Positions 14,030 to 24,949 of a DNA stretch of 42,568 nucleotides are shown piece by piece. The stretch's first letter is position 1. Every line of letters begins with the position of its first letter. Source of the stretch: a bacterium (lineage in GTDB: Bacteria > Patescibacteriota > Minisyncoccia > CAIUEV01); the NCBI GenBank assembly GCA_021779255.1, contig JAJYBC010000003.1:1-42568 (forward strand). Reading direction: 5' to 3'. The translations under genes were made by a program, and so were the position numbers. The notes beneath the pieces were generated by a model that was given only the letters and a program-made list of their open reading frames with translations, did no database searches and was not told where the DNA came from.

Positions 14030-16609
14030 TTATTTAATACTCATATCGCTTTCGGCGGGAGCCGAGGAAGTGGCATTGCCCGATCCACTTTGGATTCTAA
14101 CTAAAATTTCTTGTTCTACTTCGGCTCGAGGACGTCCATAAGTTTGGCGAGAAAATTCTCTGACAGCCATAGCCGCAGTTGAGCTACCGGTGTCCAAAGG
14201 TAAACTTTTAAGACTGAAGGGTAAAGTGGCCTGACCGCTAACAATTATTTTAAGATAAGCATTAAAATTATCCAAATTCATCAAATCATAAGAGTTAAAA
14301 ACCGGCTCATACTGCTTGGCTACCATCTCAGCATCCTCCGGACCTACTCTGAAAGAAGCCATTGAGCCAACATTGCCAAAAACGGCATCACGAATTTTTT
14401 CGTCAAGTTGTTTTAGAAATTGATGAGCGATAACCAAATTTAAGCGATATTTACGCGCCTCGGACAAGATAGAAACAATCGAATTGGTGGTAAAATTATG
14501 AAACTCATCAATATAGAGGTAAAAATCTTTGCGTTCCTCTTCTGGCATATCAACTCGGCCCATAGCCGCAATCAAAATTTTACCGACCATAACCATACCA
14601 AGCAAATAGGCATTAAGCTCGCCAATCGTGCCTTTGCTGAGATTCATTAACACAATTTTCTGACCGTCCATAATTTCTCGCAGATTAAAAGAAGAGTGTT
14701 GTTGGGCAATAATCGGACGCATTACGTCGTTAGCGATAAAAGAAGTAAGTTTGCTGGTAATATAAGGCACCATATTGGCCAAGGCGGCCTCGCCACCCGC
14801 CTTCTCCGCTTCTTTAGTCCAGAAATTAACTACAATGGGGTCGGCACAATTTTTAAGCTTCATTTGGCGAAATTCGGGGTCTGAGAGCACTCGGGAAATT
14901 TCCAGCAGAGTGGAACCCGATTCGGGATGCGCCATTACCAGAAGCATAGCATTACGCATATACTGCTCAAACATTGGCCCGCCCACTTGGCGCATATCGT
15001 ACAATTTGTCAAAAATATCAATCATCTCGTTGATGACGAAAGTTTTCTGCTCGGGACGGTTATACTCCAACAAATTTAACCCCATTGGGCGTTCCGTATC
15101 GCCCGGATCAAACAAAATAACATCTTGAACTCTATTTTCCGGAATAAAAGTTAATATTTTATTGACTAACTCACCATGAGGATCAATTACACAAACGCCT
15201 TCGCCCGCTTCAATATCCTGTTTGATTAGACCGGCTAAAAAAGTTGATTTTCCGGTGCCAGTTTGACCAATCGTATAAAGATGCCGGCGTCGATCATCAC
15301 GGCTAATTTTAACGACCGTTTCTTGATCGCGAAAAATATTTTTCCCTAAATTTAAACCTTCTAAGGGCAAATTAGTAGGGCAGGGAGCTTGACGCGACTT
15401 GGACAAAAGAATACGCGGAGCGGCTTTTTGGACATTAATACCGAAGTGAAAGAGGCTGGACAACTCTTCGGTACAAAGAAGGGAATTTCTTTTGGGGCCA
15501 AAAACACGAAAGGTATAATCAAAAATCAAATCTTTAATTTTTTTGACTTCGATATTTTTAAAGCGATTGCCCTCAGGACTTTCAAACTGAATAAAAGCGT
15601 TGGCCATATCGGAAACGATAGCCTTAGCTCTTTCTTCGGTGGGGGACGAAGCTACAAGCCTGATACTCACAGCGAAAGAATTTTTTTTCGCTTTATTCTC
15701 AATGCTGTCTATAATTTTTTCTTCGCCGGAAGTTAGAATATGAGGCCCTTTACCGTTATCTAGCTGGTTTTTTTCGTTAACGGCGGATCCACCACCCAGA
15801 CTGTGCCAAAAATCTTTAAACATTTTCTTGGCTGGTTGACTAATTTTTTCTTTGGCTTGATCGAAAGTTTTGCCTTGTTTCATTTCGCGCGCAATTTCAC
15901 TCGCCAAAGATTTATAATCGGAAGCAAAAGGTCTAACCATAATTTGAATACTGGCGCCTTCTTTTTTAGGATCCAATTTGGTTAAAGAATTCGTTAGATT
16001 ATTCAAGGGATCGCTTTCTAAATCACGATAAGTTTTAAAAGGTAAATACGGCTCTTTGTCCAGTTTTAGATAAGCGCCCGCCACGTGGCCTTTGGGCGTA
16101 AAAATGTTATAACCACGGACTTGCTCCACCGAGACAAAAGAAAAAAAACTGTGAATTTGTTTTTCCACAAAATTAGCCTGATCACTAGGCACAGCCATAT
16201 AGAAAGCAATTCCTTCTTGATTGAAAGGCACCGCCATTTCCAACGTAAAATAGGGAAAACGCGCCCATCTTTGCCAAAAATTTTGTGGTCGAATACCGTT
16301 TAGCGTGGAAAAGAACTGCTCCATCACAGCAATTTTTTCTCGCGCCAAATCCAACGAATCGCTTCTGGCCTGAATTGAAGACGAATCGGCTGAATCTCCC
16401 ATCACCGGCACAGCAATCCGTAAGAGAGTAAAACGAAAGGAATAAGCTTTTGCTTTCTGGTAGCGTAAAAGCCAAAAAATAAGAAAAATTGCCGAAATAA
16501 AGATTAAGATAAGCAAAAAAAGAATAACCAAATCATAGTTGATATTTGACCAAAAATCCAACGTGACGCTGTTTATTTGACTATCGGTTTGAGTATTGGG
16601 AGTAAGCAT
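14030..16609 (-). CDS. VirD4/TraG-like (DUF87/HerA superfamily) ATPase with N-terminal TM segment
   Basis: IGQTGTGKSTFLAGLI Walker A, VCVIDPHGELV, FYLYIDEFHNFTTNSIVSILSEARKYRLNLVIAHQFLKQL. Confidence 0.88.
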   Translation of the reverse strand: MLTPNTQTDSQINSVTLDFWSNINYDLVILFLLILIFISAIFLIFWLLRYQKAKAYSFRFTLLRIAVPVMGDSADSSSIQARSDSLDLAREKIAVMEQFFSTLNGIRPQNFWQRWARFPYFTLEMAVPFNQEGIAFYMAVPSDQANFVEKQIHSFFSFVSVEQVRGYNIFTPKGHVAGAYLKLDKEPYLPFKTYRDLESDPLNNLTNSLTKLDPKKEGASIQIMVRPFASDYKSLASEIAREMKQGKTFDQAKEKISQPAKKMFKDFWHSLGGGSAVNEKNQLDNGKGPHILTSGEEKIIDSIENKAKKNSFAVSIRLVASSPTEERAKAIVSDMANAFIQFESPEGNRFKNIEVKKIKDLIFDYTFRVFGPKRNSLLCTEELSSLFHFGINVQKAAPRILLSKSRQAPCPTNLPLEGLNLGKNIFRDQETVVKISRDDRRRHLYTIGQTGTGKSTFLAGLIKQDIEAGEGVCVIDPHGELVNKILTFIPENRVQDVILFDPGDTERPMGLNLLEYNRPEQKTFVINEMIDIFDKLYDMRQVGGPMFEQYMRNAMLLVMAHPESGSTLLEISRVLSDPEFRQMKLKNCADPIVVNFWTKEAEKAGGEAALANMVPYITSKLTSFIANDVMRPIIAQQHSSFNLREIMDGQKIVLMNLSKGTIGELNAYLLGMVMVGKILIAAMGRVDMPEEERKDFYLYIDEFHNFTTNSIVSILSEARKYRLNLVIAHQFLKQLDEKIRDAVFGNVGSMASFRVGPEDAEMVAKQYEPVFNSYDLMNLDNFNAYLKIIVSGQATLPFSLKSLPLDTGSSTAAMAVREFSRQTYGRPRAEVEQEILVRIQSGSGNATSSAPAESDMSIK

Positions 16610-16624
16610 TTATATTAATTTACT

Positions 16625-18679
16625 CTATTTATTTTTCAGCTCCGCCAACATCTTGCGCAGGTCTTCTTTATATTTCATTTTTTGCTCCTCAGAAATTTTA
16701 CTCACGTATTTGGAAGGTGGCGCCGGAGGAGCTTTAGGTGTGCTGTGAGTTCTTAAATTGGTATTTGGTTCAGATTTAGAATCGGTACTTTCGTTAGTTT
16801 TTCTTTGATTTTCTAACGCTCTTTGACGTCTAATTTCTCTTAAACAGTCTTTGCAATAGACTCCTCGATCGGCCTCGGGCTTGAAGGGAATTTTGGTTTT
16901 TTTACCACAACGATCGCAAGTTGCTTCGTGCCAAATAGTCGGCTTTTTCTCTCCTAGGTCTATGACTGGCGATTCTTGTAATTCAACCTTCTTTTCTTCC
17001 TTTTCATTTTCTGCTTTTTTTTTGTTCTTGTCCTCTGTTGTCTCTTCTACTGTCTCTGACGCTATTTCTTCGGCTAATTCTTCTTTAGCATTAGCTGCTG
17101 ATAGCGAATCCTCCATCTGTTGCTTTATTTCCGCTTCGATACCATCGCTTTCTTGGTCGCTAAAACCGACAATTTGTGAAGGCGACATAAATTTATCAGA
17201 AGAAGAATATTCGGATAAATTTTCATTTTTTTCATCCGAAAGAGGGTAATTTGTTGTTGAAACAACGTGAGAGGATTCCGTCCCTATTTTTTCGGACGAA
17301 TAATTATTCACTCCTGCAGAGAGATAGGATGATTCCGCCTCCACGGATTCGCCCATTTTCTCCTGTTTCATCTCTTCTTCGGTTAAACCAAAATTACGCG
17401 ACATCCATTTGGAAATTTTTTCCTCTACTTCTTTACGTGGATGACTATAGCGTTCACGCGAAACTTGAATCGCTTTTTCAACGTAAGAGACGACAGGGGC
17501 CTCAAAAGGAGGTAGGGATTTGGCGCTAAAAGCGTCGCCCGAAACTCCGTCAATCATCAATTTTAAATAAATCTGATACTTTGGTAAGTTGATAATATCG
17601 TTCATCATCACGGCCGGTTCAAATTCTTTTTCCAAGAATTCCGCATCCGCAGCGCCTACTCGAAAAGTTATTAAGGTACCAACGTTACCAAAAACCGCAT
17701 CTCGTACCTGTTCGTCTAACTGAGCAATATACTGATGGGCCACCGTTAAGTTTAGCCGATATTTTCGCGCCTCCGACAAAATACTAGCGAAAGATTCAGT
17801 CGCAAAATTTTGAAATTCATCAACGTAAAGATAAAAATCTCTTCGCGTCCCTTCGGCAATGTCTACTCGTTCCATAGCGGCTAAGTAAAGTCTGGTTACC
17901 ACCATACCGCCCAACAAAGCCATTGATTCTTCACCGATTTTGCCTTTGGATAGATTAACAATCAAAATTTTGCCTTCATCCATAATTTGTCGCATATTGA
18001 TTGTCGATTTGGTCTGACCAACAATGTGTCTGACAATTGGTGTCGAGATGAATTGACCAACTTTATTTTGAATAGCCGCCGTGGCTTCTCGGGCAAAACG
18101 TTGATCCCATTTGCCAAATTCTTCCAACCAAAAAGAACGGACAATAGGATCTTTGACTTTTTCGATCACCTGACTACGAAATTCTTTCTCGCTCATCATC
18201 CGGTTAATACCCAGCATGGTGCTACCCGGATAATCCAGTAAAGCTAAAATGGTGTTATTGAGGATATATTCCATTCGTGGACTCCAAACATCCGGCCAAA
18301 TTTTTTTAAAAACGCCCATCATTCCCGAAGCGATCAAATGTTTATGATCTTCGTCCACCGCTTCCAAGATGTTAAAAGCAACCGGATATTCTAAATCGGC
18401 CGGATTAAAATAAACAACATCGTTAACACGATCTTTGGGAATAAAATGCATAATTTCCTCGGCTGTATCGCCATGAGGATCGACAAAAGCTACCCCTCGC
18501 CCTTTTTTAATATCTTGAATAACCAGATTGCGTAACATAGCTGATTTTCCCATACCGGTTTTGCCGATCAAATACATATGACGTCGGCGATCATCCGGCT
18601 TGATCCCGAAAGACTTTTCTTCATTGCGATAGTCCGTCTTGGCAAAAATAGTGACATCTTCCTCCTTGATGCTAGCCAT
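16625..18679 (-). CDS. VirD4/TraG-like ATPase with C-terminal zinc-ribbon
   Basis: IGKTGMGKSAMLRNLV, VAFVDPHGDTAEEI, YVDEFQNFATESFASILSEARKYRLNLTVAHQYIAQL, CDRCGKKTKIPFKPEADRGVYCKDC. Confidence 0.9.
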   Translation of the reverse strand: MASIKEEDVTIFAKTDYRNEEKSFGIKPDDRRRHMYLIGKTGMGKSAMLRNLVIQDIKKGRGVAFVDPHGDTAEEIMHFIPKDRVNDVVYFNPADLEYPVAFNILEAVDEDHKHLIASGMMGVFKKIWPDVWSPRMEYILNNTILALLDYPGSTMLGINRMMSEKEFRSQVIEKVKDPIVRSFWLEEFGKWDQRFAREATAAIQNKVGQFISTPIVRHIVGQTKSTINMRQIMDEGKILIVNLSKGKIGEESMALLGGMVVTRLYLAAMERVDIAEGTRRDFYLYVDEFQNFATESFASILSEARKYRLNLTVAHQYIAQLDEQVRDAVFGNVGTLITFRVGAADAEFLEKEFEPAVMMNDIINLPKYQIYLKLMIDGVSGDAFSAKSLPPFEAPVVSYVEKAIQVSRERYSHPRKEVEEKISKWMSRNFGLTEEEMKQEKMGESVEAESSYLSAGVNNYSSEKIGTESSHVVSTTNYPLSDEKNENLSEYSSSDKFMSPSQIVGFSDQESDGIEAEIKQQMEDSLSAANAKEELAEEIASETVEETTEDKNKKKAENEKEEKKVELQESPVIDLGEKKPTIWHEATCDRCGKKTKIPFKPEADRGVYCKDCLREIRRQRALENQRKTNESTDSKSEPNTNLRTHSTPKAPPAPPSKYVSKISEEQKMKYKEDLRKMLAELKNK

Positions 18680-18803: not shown

Positions 18804-19136
18804 TTACTCTTTTAGTCTCTGTTTGATAAATTTTTTATACTCAACTAAATCTTCCCGACAGGTCTTCCAAATTATTTTCTTATCGATGTTGAAATATTCA
18901 TGAATTAAAAAATTTCTCATACCGATTATCACCCTAAAATCCATTTCAGAATTTTCTTTCTTAAAGTCTCGACTTAATTTATTGGTAGCTTCACCTATAA
19001 CAGCTAATTGTCTAATAATTGCATCGTAGACAATCTCGTCATCGTAAAATTTAGCATACTTTTTACCTTTCGAGTATTTTTCCACCTGCTTAATTGCCTC
19101 TAGGATGTGCTCTAAATAAAAATTATCGTTTTTCAT
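18804..19136 (-). CDS. HepT-like (DUF86) HEPN ribonuclease toxin
   Basis: RNFLIHEY matches the RX4HXY HEPN motif; directly downstream of an MNT gene. Confidence 0.88.
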   Translation of the reverse strand: MKNDNFYLEHILEAIKQVEKYSKGKKYAKFYDDEIVYDAIIRQLAVIGEATNKLSRDFKKENSEMDFRVIIGMRNFLIHEYFNIDKKIIWKTCREDLVEYKKFIKQRLKE

Positions 19137-19431
19137 AGATTTTGCAAGCTTTAGATAAAACTTCTTCTTTTATCCCTTTCTTTAGTCCCTCCTTAGTAAC
19201 TAAATCCACTTCTTTATCTAAAAACTTTTTCAAACTTAATTTGATTCTAACCAAGTCGAAAAGACCTATTTTAGCACTTTTAGTAAATTCAACTAAAATA
19301 TCCAAATCGCTTCCTTTGCTCGGTTTCCCATGAGCATAAGAACCGAACAGAGAAACTTTTTTAAAACTTTTTTGATAAGGACTAATCTCTACAGCCTCTT
19401 TAATTTTAGCCTTTAAATCCTTGTTGGTCAT
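19123..19431 (-). CDS. MntA-like nucleotidyltransferase antitoxin
   Basis: GSYAHGKPSKGSDLDILVEF minimal nucleotidyltransferase motif; overlaps the hepT start. Confidence 0.9.
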   Translation of the reverse strand: MTNKDLKAKIKEAVEISPYQKSFKKVSLFGSYAHGKPSKGSDLDILVEFTKSAKIGLFDLVRIKLSLKKFLDKEVDLVTKEGLKKGIKEEVLSKACKIYEKR

Positions 19432-19490: not shown

Positions 19491-21491
19491 TTAGTCGATC
19501 TGAATTTCTGGGGCGCCTTCACAGGCGGGAACCTTGTAAAGTTCTTTTTCTTTAATCAATTCCTTGGGCGGACTGCTCTTGCAAGGCGCTTTGCTGGTCA
19601 CGATTTCTTTAACAATGTTTTCTTCCGCTTGTTTTAGTTGTAAATATTTCGGTTGACCACTGCAAAAACCGTAGTGGTAATCTCCTTGGTTCATATAGCC
19701 ATTCTTAATAGGATAATCTGTCCAAGCTTTAAAATTGTACTCTAAAATAGAGGTATTTAAATCTCCTCTCGGTTGATTCTCGGTCCAATAACGCGCTAAA
19801 TGTCCTCTAACTTGACCGCTGGTCTGACCGGAGCCCGATTTATACGTTACTTCCGGTCTGTTTTTCTTACCTTCGTCAAATTCCTTCATGTTCTTATGGC
19901 TCTGAGTTGTTTCCAAACTACCTATCTGATTAGCACAGGCAATCGCTTCGATCTGACCTCTAGAAAATCCCCCCATTTTATTCAAACAAAACTGGCCGGA
20001 ATGTGTTCCCTCGTGAACTAAGAAATGGGCAATATTAATAATTTTATCTTTATGCGTCACATATATACTGCCACAACCGTCGCAAAGCCCTCCTTCCGGA
20101 TTATCACCAATATGTGCCACGAAACGAAAAATCATTTCGTACCGAAATTGATCGCGGTTGGCAATTCTTTTTAGAGCTTTGAGGATGGCTTGACGAGAAC
20201 CATCACCGTTATTCCAGTCACCAGGGTCTAAATCAGATGTTCCTCCTTGATCTTTATTAATCTTATCCATTCCATCGGATATTTTACCAAAATCATCCGT
20301 TTTACTACCAGTTGGCGCGTTGCTATTAGACATCGATTTCTGCCAACTGTTAGGATCGACCTGTGTCTTATCCGTCGATTGGTTATTATCAGTTTTACTA
20401 TTATCGGTCGCCGTTTTTTCCGTGCGATCGCCGCTGTTGGTCGCATTACTTCTATCATTTACTTCAGCCACCAAAACAGCATTCTCCTTGACTTTAGCCG
20501 TTAGACCCGACAAAGTTTGCTCAATAAAAGTATTTTTGGGATTTTGCGCCTCCAAACTATCCACTGTCTGAGTTAAAGCGGCGATCGCCTGATCGATTTT
20601 TTGCGGGTTGCTTTTGAGATCTGAAAAATTTTGAACGTCTGACAAACCCATTTTAGCTAAATCACCCGATTTCCGAAGAGAATCAAAAGTCAAATTGCCA
20701 ATATAATCGGTTAAATTATTTAAAATTTGCTTTTTCTGACTACTAGTTAGGGTTTGATTATTTTGATCCAAAAGAGACAGATTACTATAGCTAGGGTCGC
20801 CAGCTAGAATACCCAGATAAGTCCCTAAATTATCCGAAAGGGCAGTCGTATCTATTTTTAACTGACCATTCGAAGAATAACCGGCCAAAAAAGGAACTAA
20901 AACTGTTTCTTCTTTATTAACTGAATTTAATTTCGCTGGAACCGAAAAAACAATTTCCTGATTTTCCGGCAAAGAACTTTTGAGTTGAGTTAAAAAAGAA
21001 TCAGCCGAAAAATTACTCGTGATAATACCCGCTTTTTCTTGGCTATTAACAAGTGAAGAAAGCTGGGAGTAAGTTTTCAGTGAAGATAAATAGTCGGCTT
21101 TTGGTAAATCACTGCCCACTTTTTGAGTTCCTAAATTAACATTTTCACTCTCATCAACGCATTGAAATTGCCACCAAGAACCGGCATTTTGATAACCTAC
21201 CGCCGAAATAGCTCCTTTGAGAATTAACCAACCGGCCAGAATTAATGCAAAACCGATAAAAGCTTTTTTGGCTGTTCCCTTGGCTTTTTCCATAAAACTT
21301 TTCCGGCCAACCGAAAAAATATAGGCAAAGCCGGCTAAAATTAGAAAGGCGATGGCCACCGAAAAGCCAATCAGGATAATATAATTATAAATATTAACGG
21401 TGGTGGTCAGCAAACTACAAACACCGCAATCACCGCCTGAGCAAGCCACCAGACTGTCGCTCGCCGCTTGCACTGTTTGAATTAAATTCAT
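19491..21491 (-). CDS. T4SS-pilin-like N-terminal domain fused to a long secreted region with HExxH metallopeptidase-like motif
   Basis: N-term SLVACSGGDCGVCSLL plus two TM segments and NAGSWWQFQC; C-term FLVHEGTHSGQFCLNKMGGFSRGQIEAIACANQIGSLE. Confidence 0.75.
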   Translation of the reverse strand: MNLIQTVQAASDSLVACSGGDCGVCSLLTTTVNIYNYIILIGFSVAIAFLILAGFAYIFSVGRKSFMEKAKGTAKKAFIGFALILAGWLILKGAISAVGYQNAGSWWQFQCVDESENVNLGTQKVGSDLPKADYLSSLKTYSQLSSLVNSQEKAGIITSNFSADSFLTQLKSSLPENQEIVFSVPAKLNSVNKEETVLVPFLAGYSSNGQLKIDTTALSDNLGTYLGILAGDPSYSNLSLLDQNNQTLTSSQKKQILNNLTDYIGNLTFDSLRKSGDLAKMGLSDVQNFSDLKSNPQKIDQAIAALTQTVDSLEAQNPKNTFIEQTLSGLTAKVKENAVLVAEVNDRSNATNSGDRTEKTATDNSKTDNNQSTDKTQVDPNSWQKSMSNSNAPTGSKTDDFGKISDGMDKINKDQGGTSDLDPGDWNNGDGSRQAILKALKRIANRDQFRYEMIFRFVAHIGDNPEGGLCDGCGSIYVTHKDKIINIAHFLVHEGTHSGQFCLNKMGGFSRGQIEAIACANQIGSLETTQSHKNMKEFDEGKKNRPEVTYKSGSGQTSGQVRGHLARYWTENQPRGDLNTSILEYNFKAWTDYPIKNGYMNQGDYHYGFCSGQPKYLQLKQAEENIVKEIVTSKAPCKSSPPKELIKEKELYKVPACEGAPEIQID

Positions 21492-21722
21492 TTTTTTGTT
21501 TTAATTTTAATTGTCACCCCAAACCTTATTTTGACATCTTAAATTGTTTTAATAATACTAATTATTTTAAATAACGTCTAGCAAACCAGTACTGTCATTA
21601 CCCGGCCACAATCCCTTGGTCAAGCCAGAGGAGGTAATTCAGTCTATTTAGATTGTATTTTTGTCCCTAGATCGCCCGATTAAGTCGAACGATAACAGCG
21701 TTAACCACAGTGTAATAGCAAC

Positions 21723-21755
21723 ATAAAAAAAGAACGTAGTCGGGCTACGTTCTTT
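21723..21755 (-). terminator. rho-independent terminator downstream of the 121-aa gene
   Basis: minus strand AAAGAACGTAG-CCCGA-CTACGTTCTTT followed by TTTTATGT; 11-bp perfect stem. Confidence 0.75.
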
Positions 21756-21781
21756 AAAATTATTCAGTTAACAACTGATTG

Positions 21782-22147
21782 TCAATGTCTAGGATCTATA
21801 ACAATTATCGGCGGTCTCGACCTATTTTGCCCACCCGTACGAGCAAACTCCTCTAGCCAATTAATATTATTCATAACCTCACTGAAATCTATAGAATTGC
21901 GGGGACACACTTGGCGAGCACATTGGCTAGCATTTTCCACAAACGCCATAATAAAATCAGCATTCCAGTCCGCTCCAACCAACAACATTTTGACCTTGCT
22001 GTTGGTATTATTGCGAAGCCAGTTACAATCGAAACACTGCGCTCTTGAAAGTGATACGCTCACAAAAGCTAAGATTAGTACTGTAAGGAGCACTAAAGCC
22101 CAAAAAAAACCTCTACTCAACTTTTCTTCCTTAACTTCAAAACGCAT
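21782..22147 (-). CDS. small signal-anchored hypothetical protein
   Basis: 121 aa, one N-terminal hydrophobic segment, Cys-containing exported part; canonical Shine-Dalgarno aaaaggagggctttaaaATG. Confidence 0.65.
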   Translation of the reverse strand: MRFEVKEEKLSRGFFWALVLLTVLILAFVSVSLSRAQCFDCNWLRNNTNSKVKMLLVGADWNADFIMAFVENASQCARQVCPRNSIDFSEVMNNINWLEEFARTGGQNRSRPPIIVIDPRH

Positions 22148-22258
22148 TTTAAAGCCCTCCTTTTGTGCGATTTCCGTAGTTGCAATATGCTTTTCATATT
22201 TGTAATACGTCCATTATAGTTTCAGAAAAATTCATTTTCGTCAATCTAAAAAGCGATT

Positions 22259-24949
22259 TTACCCACCCAACTTTATTTCTTTCGCTTCTTTGCATCCTTG
22301 TAATTGTTCCTCCTTATAATCTTTATCCGTTAACTGTGGTAAATCGGCGGGTGGTTTGGAAATACATTTAAAAGTATTGGTTCTGTTCATAATTAGCTCG
22401 TTGCGACCGTGTTCGTAGTCATTTAATCTCAAAATATAATCTTCTCCACCCTTGGGCCACCCGTAAACCTGAGTGGGACTAACAGGAGCTCCGTAGCCTT
22501 TGGCATAGCTAGCTGAAGAAGCGACTGCAGTCGGATTCATATCTCCTCGCGGATCAATGTCTCGATCAACCCAGCGACTGGAATAACCTCGACATTCCAG
22601 ACGATCAGTCGAGTTATTTCCTCCCGGAATTTCCAAAACTTTTACTTCTTCTTTTTGACCGGGAACTTCTTTAACCCTGCCAACGCCTCCAATCTCATTA
22701 CTCACCGCTATGTATTCCAAATTTTTATAGCTACTCGACCAACCGTCCAAAGAAAAATCGGCTTGATGAGTTGTCTCGTGAATAATCACTTCATCCAAAG
22801 ATTTAACCGGTAAACCGAAATTAACATGAATTATTCCTGATTCATTAGAAGCAGTATGTCCGCCGCCACCGGAAGGAATCATTAAACTAACATATTTAAA
22901 AATCATTAAATAACGTAATTTATCTTTGGCGTAAATTCTCTTCAGGGCTTCTTTTACTCCTTCGACACCGCCATAAGCCTGTCCGGTGTCGTTATTATTG
23001 GGGATCATCCCTTTGCCGCCTCGCTCTCCCGGATTCGGATCGGTAATTTTCGTATTACCACTATTGCCTTTATTGATCCCTTTGCCGGACGAAGCAGCAT
23101 TTTTACCGGAACCACTGGTCGGATTATTAGCGCCAGTGTTGGAACCGCCGGCAGTTATCGTATTTTTGGGATTAGCAGTTGCTGTGTTTATATTACTATT
23201 TTGATTAAAAAGACCGCTGGAATCCATCTCTCCCGAATTATTATTGCTGTTTTGACCATTATACTGATTATTTTTCTGACAATTAGGATCGAAGGAAAGA
23301 GAAACCGGTTTGCAAGAATAAGCTAACAATTTGCCTTGCTGACAATCCTGATAACCGGTCGGATAAACCGCCCAATTATTACCGATACATTGATCAACTG
23401 GGCATTGTTTGCTTAGCATACCCAAGTCAGAGCAACCACAACCATAATATTGACTAGCTGAATCTTTGTTAATAAATTTCACTTCGGATGGGGAAGTATA
23501 GGGACAAAAATCTTGACTGTTAATAACTCCATCACCATCATCATCAGCAACTTTGGTAATGCAACTGCCCTCCGCGTCGGTACAATCATCTTTTTGACAC
23601 TGGCAAACAGAACTTCCCACCTGAGGAAGTTCATTGCTATATTGTGGCGAATCCCACGAAAGATTGTCTTCCCCGCAAAGATTTGTTTGATTACCACTTT
23701 CTTTAAGCACCCAACTACCTCCGCTGTTTTGACATTTTTGCTCTAAATCAGCCAACGGACGGCAGAAAGCATCGATTTGACCAGCAAGATTGCTATCGCA
23801 TTGACATTTTCCATCAGTCCAAGTGCCTCCGTAATTTTGGCAAACCCACTGTGCTGTCTGATTATTACCGTTTGTATTTTCTTTAGTAACCGCCATAACT
23901 TTAGTCATTTTCATAACTTCCGCCGTCAAAACGGCAATAATTTTTTGACTGTCTACTTGCGGATTATTGGGATCGGCCAAACTAGCAATAATTTCAGCTA
24001 GATCGGCATTTTTTGGATCTTTCAATAAAGTTTTGGTTCGATCGCCTTGTCCCGTTTGATAATCTTTCAACATTGACCCGATTTGCGCAAAAATAGTCGA
24101 GAAATCAGTCCCCGAAGCACTATTTAACACTTGTCCGCTACTGTCAATAATGGATTGATTGTTGGTAAAATTGTTAGTACCTAAATATTGATCTAACAAA
24201 TCAGCATTAGTCACTTGTTGATTATTGTTTGATTGTTTAGCGCTTTCATTAGCCCATTGATCTTGAATTAAAGTCCAGTATTCACCCGCGTTTTTAAGAC
24301 TTAGCTCCTCGCCATTATTTTGAACGGAAAAAAGAGGCAGAAAAGTATTTTCTGCAGAATCAGTTGAGCTCACTTGGGCAGGCGCCAAAAAATTCAAAGT
24401 TTCCCCATTATTTAAACTTTTTAATTCGGCCAACAAAGCTTCTGTATCGGTCGGACCAGTTATTTTACCTGATTTATCCGGACTCGCTAAAAAAGCTTTT
24501 ACGCTGGAAAAAGTTTTTAATTTTTCGTAAAAAGGCGAAAAATAGGGTAATTTTTCACTCCAAAATTGAGTTGTTTCTTGATTGTCCGAAGAGCAACGAA
24601 ATTGCCACCAAGAACCGCTATTTTTGGGTCCGAGAGAAATAATTAATGAGTTGGTGACTATCCAACCGGTAATTATAACAGCAAAGCCGATAAGACCGCT
24701 TTTGAGTAAATTAGCCGATTGTCTAAAAAGATTCCGATTACCGGCGCTCAAAATATAGTTTAAGCCCGCAATAATAACCGCCAGAATAGCCACCACGGAG
24801 CTAACGGCCAAGAAAAAATTATAAGTCGCCGTAATCGTTTCGAATAGCGAGCAAAGATCACAATTAGGACCTTGACAAGTAACGAGACTGGTTTGCTCAG
24901 CCGCTTGAGTGATATTAACTATTTTTTCACCAAGATAAGATAGGAACAT
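22259..24949 (-). CDS. T4SS-pilin-like N-terminal domain fused to a Cys-rich, Ca-binding-like linker and C-terminal HExxH metallopeptidase-like region
   Basis: SLVTCQGPNCDLCSLFETITATYNF, two TM segments, NSGSWWQFRC; DDDGDGVINSQDFCPY (thrombospondin type 3-like); VIIHETTHQADFSLDGWSSSYKNLEYIAVSNEIGG. Confidence 0.75.
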   Translation of the reverse strand: MFLSYLGEKIVNITQAAEQTSLVTCQGPNCDLCSLFETITATYNFFLAVSSVVAILAVIIAGLNYILSAGNRNLFRQSANLLKSGLIGFAVIITGWIVTNSLIISLGPKNSGSWWQFRCSSDNQETTQFWSEKLPYFSPFYEKLKTFSSVKAFLASPDKSGKITGPTDTEALLAELKSLNNGETLNFLAPAQVSSTDSAENTFLPLFSVQNNGEELSLKNAGEYWTLIQDQWANESAKQSNNNQQVTNADLLDQYLGTNNFTNNQSIIDSSGQVLNSASGTDFSTIFAQIGSMLKDYQTGQGDRTKTLLKDPKNADLAEIIASLADPNNPQVDSQKIIAVLTAEVMKMTKVMAVTKENTNGNNQTAQWVCQNYGGTWTDGKCQCDSNLAGQIDAFCRPLADLEQKCQNSGGSWVLKESGNQTNLCGEDNLSWDSPQYSNELPQVGSSVCQCQKDDCTDAEGSCITKVADDDGDGVINSQDFCPYTSPSEVKFINKDSASQYYGCGCSDLGMLSKQCPVDQCIGNNWAVYPTGYQDCQQGKLLAYSCKPVSLSFDPNCQKNNQYNGQNSNNNSGEMDSSGLFNQNSNINTATANPKNTITAGGSNTGANNPTSGSGKNAASSGKGINKGNSGNTKITDPNPGERGGKGMIPNNNDTGQAYGGVEGVKEALKRIYAKDKLRYLMIFKYVSLMIPSGGGGHTASNESGIIHVNFGLPVKSLDEVIIHETTHQADFSLDGWSSSYKNLEYIAVSNEIGGVGRVKEVPGQKEEVKVLEIPGGNNSTDRLECRGYSSRWVDRDIDPRGDMNPTAVASSASYAKGYGAPVSPTQVYGWPKGGEDYILRLNDYEHGRNELIMNRTNTFKCISKPPADLPQLTDKDYKEEQLQGCKEAKEIKLGG

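Follow-up and report, generated by a model that had tools for sequence, protein, structure and literature searches.

A window of 42,568 nucleotides, the whole stretch of DNA analysed here, encodes two paralogous proteins (copies A and B) in which an N-terminal pilin-like module is joined to a C-terminal zincin-like domain. The source is a tiny uncultivated candidate-phyla bacterium with a genome of 843 kb (94% complete). On balance, copies A and B are probably membrane- or pilus-anchored surface hydrolases of a VirB1-like kind, tied to the T4SS of Patescibacteria and carrying a new zincin as their passenger. The original prediction described two large open reading frames with a series of motifs; both frames are intact, with the predicted lengths of 666 and 896 aa, and all of the motifs are present where they had been placed. 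The features are as follows.

19491-21491, minus strand: copy A, pilin-module/HExxH fusion protein; intact ORF, 666 aa
21147-21452, minus strand: T4SS_pilin-like two-helix module of copy A; four conserved Cys, positively charged inter-helix loop, hairpin in the AlphaFold model
19494-20213, minus strand: C-terminal zincin-like domain of copy A, 240 aa; alignments, AlphaFold model and Foldseek
20001-20015, minus strand: HEGTH motif of copy A, residues 493-497
19947-19949, minus strand: invariant Glu residue 515 of copy A, candidate third metal ligand; 18 residues past the second His, in the next helix
21782-22147, minus strand: small secreted-looking protein of 121 aa between copies A and B; possible accessory protein
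22259-24949, minus strand: copy B, pilin-module/Cys-rich/HExxH fusion protein; intact ORF, 896 aa
24581-24886, minus strand: T4SS_pilin-like module of copy B; A5 family profile E 8.5e-42, with copy B among the sequences used to build that profile
23492-23584, minus strand: Cys-rich stretch of copy B with DDDGDGVINSQD, EF-hand/TSP3-like; weak matches
22262-22984, minus strand: C-terminal zincin-like domain of copy B; alignment and tree
22766-22780, minus strand: HETTH motif of copy B, residues 724-728
22715-22717, minus strand: invariant Glu residue 745 of copy B, candidate third metal ligand; alignment

The pilin-like module and its passengers

Both copies open with SLVxC-x4-C-x2-CSL, followed by two hydrophobic helices separated by a positive loop and a closing GSWWQFxC. 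Judged by sequence, this module is a real relative of the T4SS_pilin family (PF18895), in agreement with the pilin-like N-terminus that had been predicted. Copy A scores 28.6 bits against PF18895 and passes the gathering cut-off of 26.6. Copy B alone reaches 13.9 bits, under the cut-off, and its module is assigned to the family through its paralogy with copy A, to which its N-terminal half is homologous (E=5e-34). The A5 profile also picks up the short pilins of the same genome. An AlphaFold model of copy A residues 1-343 contains the expected helical hairpin (20-59 and 64-97) with modest confidence. No informative match came from a fold search with the N-terminal and middle region (best E 0.18; pLDDT 70 for the model). 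In a profile search of the PDB the pilin module matched designed Pizza proteins; no stretch passes alone, and the match was rejected as spurious.

The inter-helix loop contains 6 basic residues in 22 in copy A and 3 in 22 in copy B, and the N-terminus is uncharged or acidic. By the positive-inside rule, both ends of the module would lie outside and the loop inside. No obvious signal peptide was found in either window protein, a point on which the SLT paralogues described below differ. A typical PF18895 pilin has about 100-150 aa and no large passenger, a size from which the window proteins depart at 666 and 896 aa.

The original prediction had described the two proteins as a pair. With copy A as query, the same genome yielded at least five further module-bearing proteins of 658-841 aa, and a short one lies at the edge of a contig; in all, at least seven proteins of 658-896 aa share the module, five of them without HExxH. 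Two paralogues end in an SLT lytic transglycosylase domain (PF01464, 1e-10 and 2e-8) and carry T4SS_pilin at 1.3e-10 and 2.2e-10 in Pfam. One ends in a VanY/M15 carboxypeptidase (1.6e-7 / 6e-7), and the C-terminal domain of two others has a conserved H...S.GC motif. Neither Pfam nor PDB sequences confirm the latter as an L,D-transpeptidase, and as it has no solved relative by sequence, the label ‘L,D-transpeptidase-like’ refers to the motif alone. Among the paralogues read in this genome, HExxH occurs in the window pair only; a peptidoglycan hydrolase domain is present in the SLT and VanY paralogues and was not recognised in the window pair. Our comparison of the encoded sequences thus makes copies A and B part of a wider set of paralogues, in which the remaining passengers are for the most part enzymes acting on the cell wall.

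The Ca-binding-like motif predicted in copy B, DDDGDGVINSQD, is present and gives weak EF-hand and TSP3 scores. The Cys-rich, TSP3-like stretch that contains it is also present in the VanY-type and H...S.GC-type paralogues, so the proteins are modular, with a pilin module, a middle domain, an optional Cys-rich stretch, an N/S/G-rich linker and an enzyme-like domain.

Identical passenger types are found in three related genomes, where SLT and T4SS_pilin both score above gathering in three further proteins. The module itself was found in 188 of 188 genomes of the class, mostly as short pilins and often in long fusions. SLT was identified at the C-terminus of 7 of the 40 fusions read, from loci that were picked for long open frames and therefore give no estimate of frequency; the other C-termini include VanY/M15, kelch, LamG, PA14 and DUF1554. 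At three loci (L092, L095, L096) the module is fused to LamG, kelch and PA14, passengers that look suited to binding, not cutting. Large proteins at six others (L081, L084, L085, L088, L093, L098) carry the module C-terminally instead, often as tandem pairs.

The C-terminal HExxH domain

The C-terminal domain of copies A and B is zincin-like and probably a gluzincin. Eight homologous sequences from four genera, 28-61% identical to copy A, were aligned; residues are numbered within the 240-aa domain. H67, E68, T70, H71, E89 and N95 are invariant in all eight, giving HExTH and a later Glu, which begins EAIACANQIG from residue 515 in copy A and EYIAVSNEIG from residue 745 in copy B. The only invariant His or acidic residues are D21, H67, E68, H71, E89 and E111. 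The original prediction had turned on homologues keeping HExxH, which they do in eight of eight cases. In shuffled versions of the proteins, HExxH appears by chance in 0.4% (copy A) and 0.08% (copy B).

The AlphaFold model of the 240-aa domain is confident (pLDDT 80, pTM 0.83) and places HExxH inside helix 58-78 and E89 inside the next helix, 85-97. A Foldseek search of the PDB gave a best E of 0.32; M32 carboxypeptidases take the first three places (E 0.32-0.77) and PprI/IrrE the fifth. Among viral models, metallopeptidase, SprT-like and IrrE proteins make up most of the neighbours, two of them with probabilities of 0.96 and 0.99 and rmsd values of 4.0 and 2.1 Å over 92-96 columns (E 0.06-0.09). 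There was no match at E<0.001 in the PDB or the viral library. These neighbours, together with the conserved HExxH and Glu, fit the metallopeptidase-like C-terminus that had been predicted.

The domain has no significant match to a Pfam, NCBIfam or PHROG family; a match to TIGR04267 is sub-threshold (E 0.25). Alignment by hhalign to YgjP-like proteins of CPR bacteria gives 95% probability over 38 columns covering the GxIxVN strand and HExxH helix only, a result that is partly circular because the YgjP set was fetched with the same profile. Known HExxH zincins (SprT/YgjP-like, IrrE/PprI, M32) thus have in common with our domain an HExxH helix after a GxIxVN-like strand; the likeness is confined to this active-site core, and the rest of the 240 residues matches nothing. 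Since the zincin neighbours are weak and the YgjP match covers the core only, we call the domain zincin-like and do not put it in a named family. It is a candidate new peptidase family, predicted from sequence and model and contained in a single 240-aa domain, and would be expected to bind zinc and act catalytically.

The search of other genomes for the same fusion, which had been suggested with the original prediction, found the domain in three genera besides that of the window, all of them in its GTDB family; like the window genome, each has it as two genes. This family is Moranbacteria-like, and one of its loci (L031) is labelled Candidatus Moraniibacteriota. The copy A ortholog at that locus, in G003, is 45% identical over its length, and full-length relatives of copy B occur in three other genera. 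Separate trees for the two halves of the proteins give the same copy A pairing (window plus L031), with weak resolution elsewhere. In copy B the C-terminal domain evolves faster (branch 1.31) and has lost three Cys that the other seven sequences keep; its HExxH is retained. A profile search of 380 other genomes of the class did not find the domain. Weak matches across the phylum were rejected as YgjP-like proteins that share only the HExxH strand-helix, and the HELTH protein at a Planctomycetaceae locus (L035) is unrelated. Spread by phages or plasmids was also rejected; tblastn gave no match in either, and no relative was present among viral contigs.

Gene neighbourhood and T4SS linkage

The original prediction also pointed to nearby VirD4-like ATPases. 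These are indeed close by on the same strand as the fusions (14030-18679); as an argument for T4SS their proximity fails, because the ATPases do not accompany the homologous genes in other genomes, and conserved linkage was rejected. A small-gene pair at 18804-19431 separates the ATPases from the fusions. Its two short overlapping genes, on the minus strand, resemble by eye a HEPN/minimal nucleotidyltransferase toxin-antitoxin pair.

The SLT paralogues provide a better link to T4SS than VirD4 proximity, as they lie beside virB4 or its PH-domain neighbour. The order of a PH-domain protein followed by an SLT fusion is kept in four of four genera, and in the window genome and G001 virB4 directly adjoins this PH-protein/SLT fusion unit (L009, L067). 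At eight other fetched loci, from other families, short pilins are encoded on the same strand as a large fusion and no more than 3 kb from it. In the four related genomes no short pilins were found next to the fusions. The HExxH genes adjoin no T4SS core genes, virB4 included, in any relative; these are draft genomes, so neighbours missing at contig ends are no proof of absence.

The neighbours that HExxH genes do have are a glycosyltransferase and an 870-916-aa protein; this holds for two of the other three genomes and, in G002, for one of two loci. This conserved glycosyltransferase with its 870-916-aa, probably secreted companion (L027:10199-13991, L029:4103-7819, L030:2423-6087) does not occur in the window.

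Proposed role and alternative explanations

T4SS is among the few machines proven essential for the epibiotic life and growth on a host of a Patescibacterium, and the pilin array is essential in Ca. S. epibionticum (PMC10633639). In Paceibacteria that parasitise methanogens, T4SS pilin domains are among the highly expressed extracellular proteins, according to the parts of a 2024 study available to us, which do not describe pilin fusions (PMC10936435). Gram-positive T4SSs open the wall with membrane-anchored VirB1-like enzymes such as PrgK, TraG of pIP501 and Orf14 of Tn916 (PMC12857230). From the accessible portion of a 2025 survey of Patescibacteria, VirB1 is missing from most genomes with VirB2-like pilins; fusions are not mentioned there (PMC12102498). 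A literature search of openly accessible journal papers found no published fusion of a pilin to a hydrolase, transglycosylase or metallopeptidase, and among these papers T4SS_pilin/PF18895 was named only in that survey. The fusions with SLT, VanY and other enzyme-like domains raise the possibility that in some lineages the missing VirB1 activity is fused to the VirB2-like module.

The fusions resemble two known systems in part. With the VirB2-like pilins of Patescibacteria (PF18895; PMC12102498) they share the two-helix module, copy A passing the Pfam cut-off; known pilins are small, whereas the fusions add 550-780 residues that end in an enzyme-like domain. With the VirB1-like peptidoglycan hydrolases of Gram-positive T4SSs (PMC12857230) they share a membrane-anchored, extracellular arrangement of wall-cutting domains, and the SLT members that invite this comparison adjoin virB4 or its PH-protein neighbour. 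VirB1 proteins have other anchors, unlike the pilin-like hairpin here, and the window pair has HExxH in place of SLT, CHAP or LytM. The variety of enzyme passengers on a shared module suggests a family role like that of these anchored hydrolases.

We propose that the VirB2/T4SS_pilin-like hairpin would be inserted in the membrane so that its two ends face outward and its positive loop inward, anchoring a long extracellular passenger and probably docking to the T4SS. The passenger would consist of the middle domain, the N/S/G-rich linker and the C-terminal enzyme. This enzyme would be a new zincin-type metallopeptidase domain (HExxH plus Glu, gluzincin-like) in the window pair, and a lytic transglycosylase, VanY/M15 carboxypeptidase or L,D-transpeptidase-like domain in the sister proteins. 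Together, the family may open or trim the wall, and surface proteins with it, around the T4SS, on the cell itself, on an attached host cell or on both. The HExxH members could act where the wall-cutting members do, trimming peptides that belong to the surface or are linked to the wall; both this substrate and physical association with the T4SS are predictions of the model.

The module might instead be a mere two-helix membrane anchor, and the proteins general envelope enzymes for growth of the cell's own wall or surface processing, with no T4SS link. The HExxH, VanY and H...S.GC members are scattered in the genome away from virB4, and modules of other families carry kelch, LamG or PA14 or sit at the C-terminus, as this explanation would allow; we nevertheless regard it as rather unlikely, given the virB4/PH-protein neighbourhood kept by SLT members in all four genera and the short-pilin arrays beside fusions in other families. 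Those same arrays, and the T4SS_pilin score of the module, would also suit true enzyme-bearing pilins, in which the module polymerises with short pilins and C-terminal enzymes decorate a host-touching pilus. The subunit termini of F/VirB2 pili face outward and the charged loop faces the lumen, a geometry that would permit a C-terminal passenger. In a helical filament, however, passengers of 550-780 residues would leave too little room if the subunit were not rare, and the four related genomes lack short pilins beside the fusions; we consider such pilins unlikely. Equally doubtful is the broader idea that fusing pilins to transglycosylase, carboxypeptidase, transpeptidase-like and new metallopeptidase domains has made the T4SS pilus of Patescibacteria an enzyme-bearing appendage for breaching the host envelope.

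Two further explanations concern the C-termini. That the HExxH domain is degenerate or a non-peptidase, either a binding module or another HExxH enzyme such as an alpha-ketoglutarate-HExxH hydroxylase, would accord with its lack of a recognised peptidase family, the sub-threshold TIGR04267 match, and the long branch and lost Cys of copy B. It is quite improbable, because HExTH and E89 persist in all eight sequences though invariance is limited to 30 of the 208 ungapped columns, the structural neighbours are mainly metallopeptidases and a ketoglutarate enzyme is unlikely at an extracellular location. Least probable is that the proteins are polymorphic-toxin-like effectors, with an N-terminal targeting module that delivers toxic C-termini to neighbouring cells and the 121-aa gene as an immunity or accessory gene. 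The constant N-terminus, the variable C-termini and the small protein between both copies in two genera recall such systems; against this, the passenger set is stable across genera without turnover, immunity genes were not recognisable, and the adjacent copies of G001 (L030) have no counterpart of the 121-aa gene between them.

The second of these small proteins is encoded in G003 by a Cys-containing ORF in the position of the 121-aa gene (L027:6902-7369, minus strand), with 19% identity to the window protein and E=2e-4 in a single comparison; when a small database was searched, the match did not reach significance. Near the HExxH fusion of G002 lies an open frame of 2402 aa with an N/S-rich start (L028:3-7211, plus strand).
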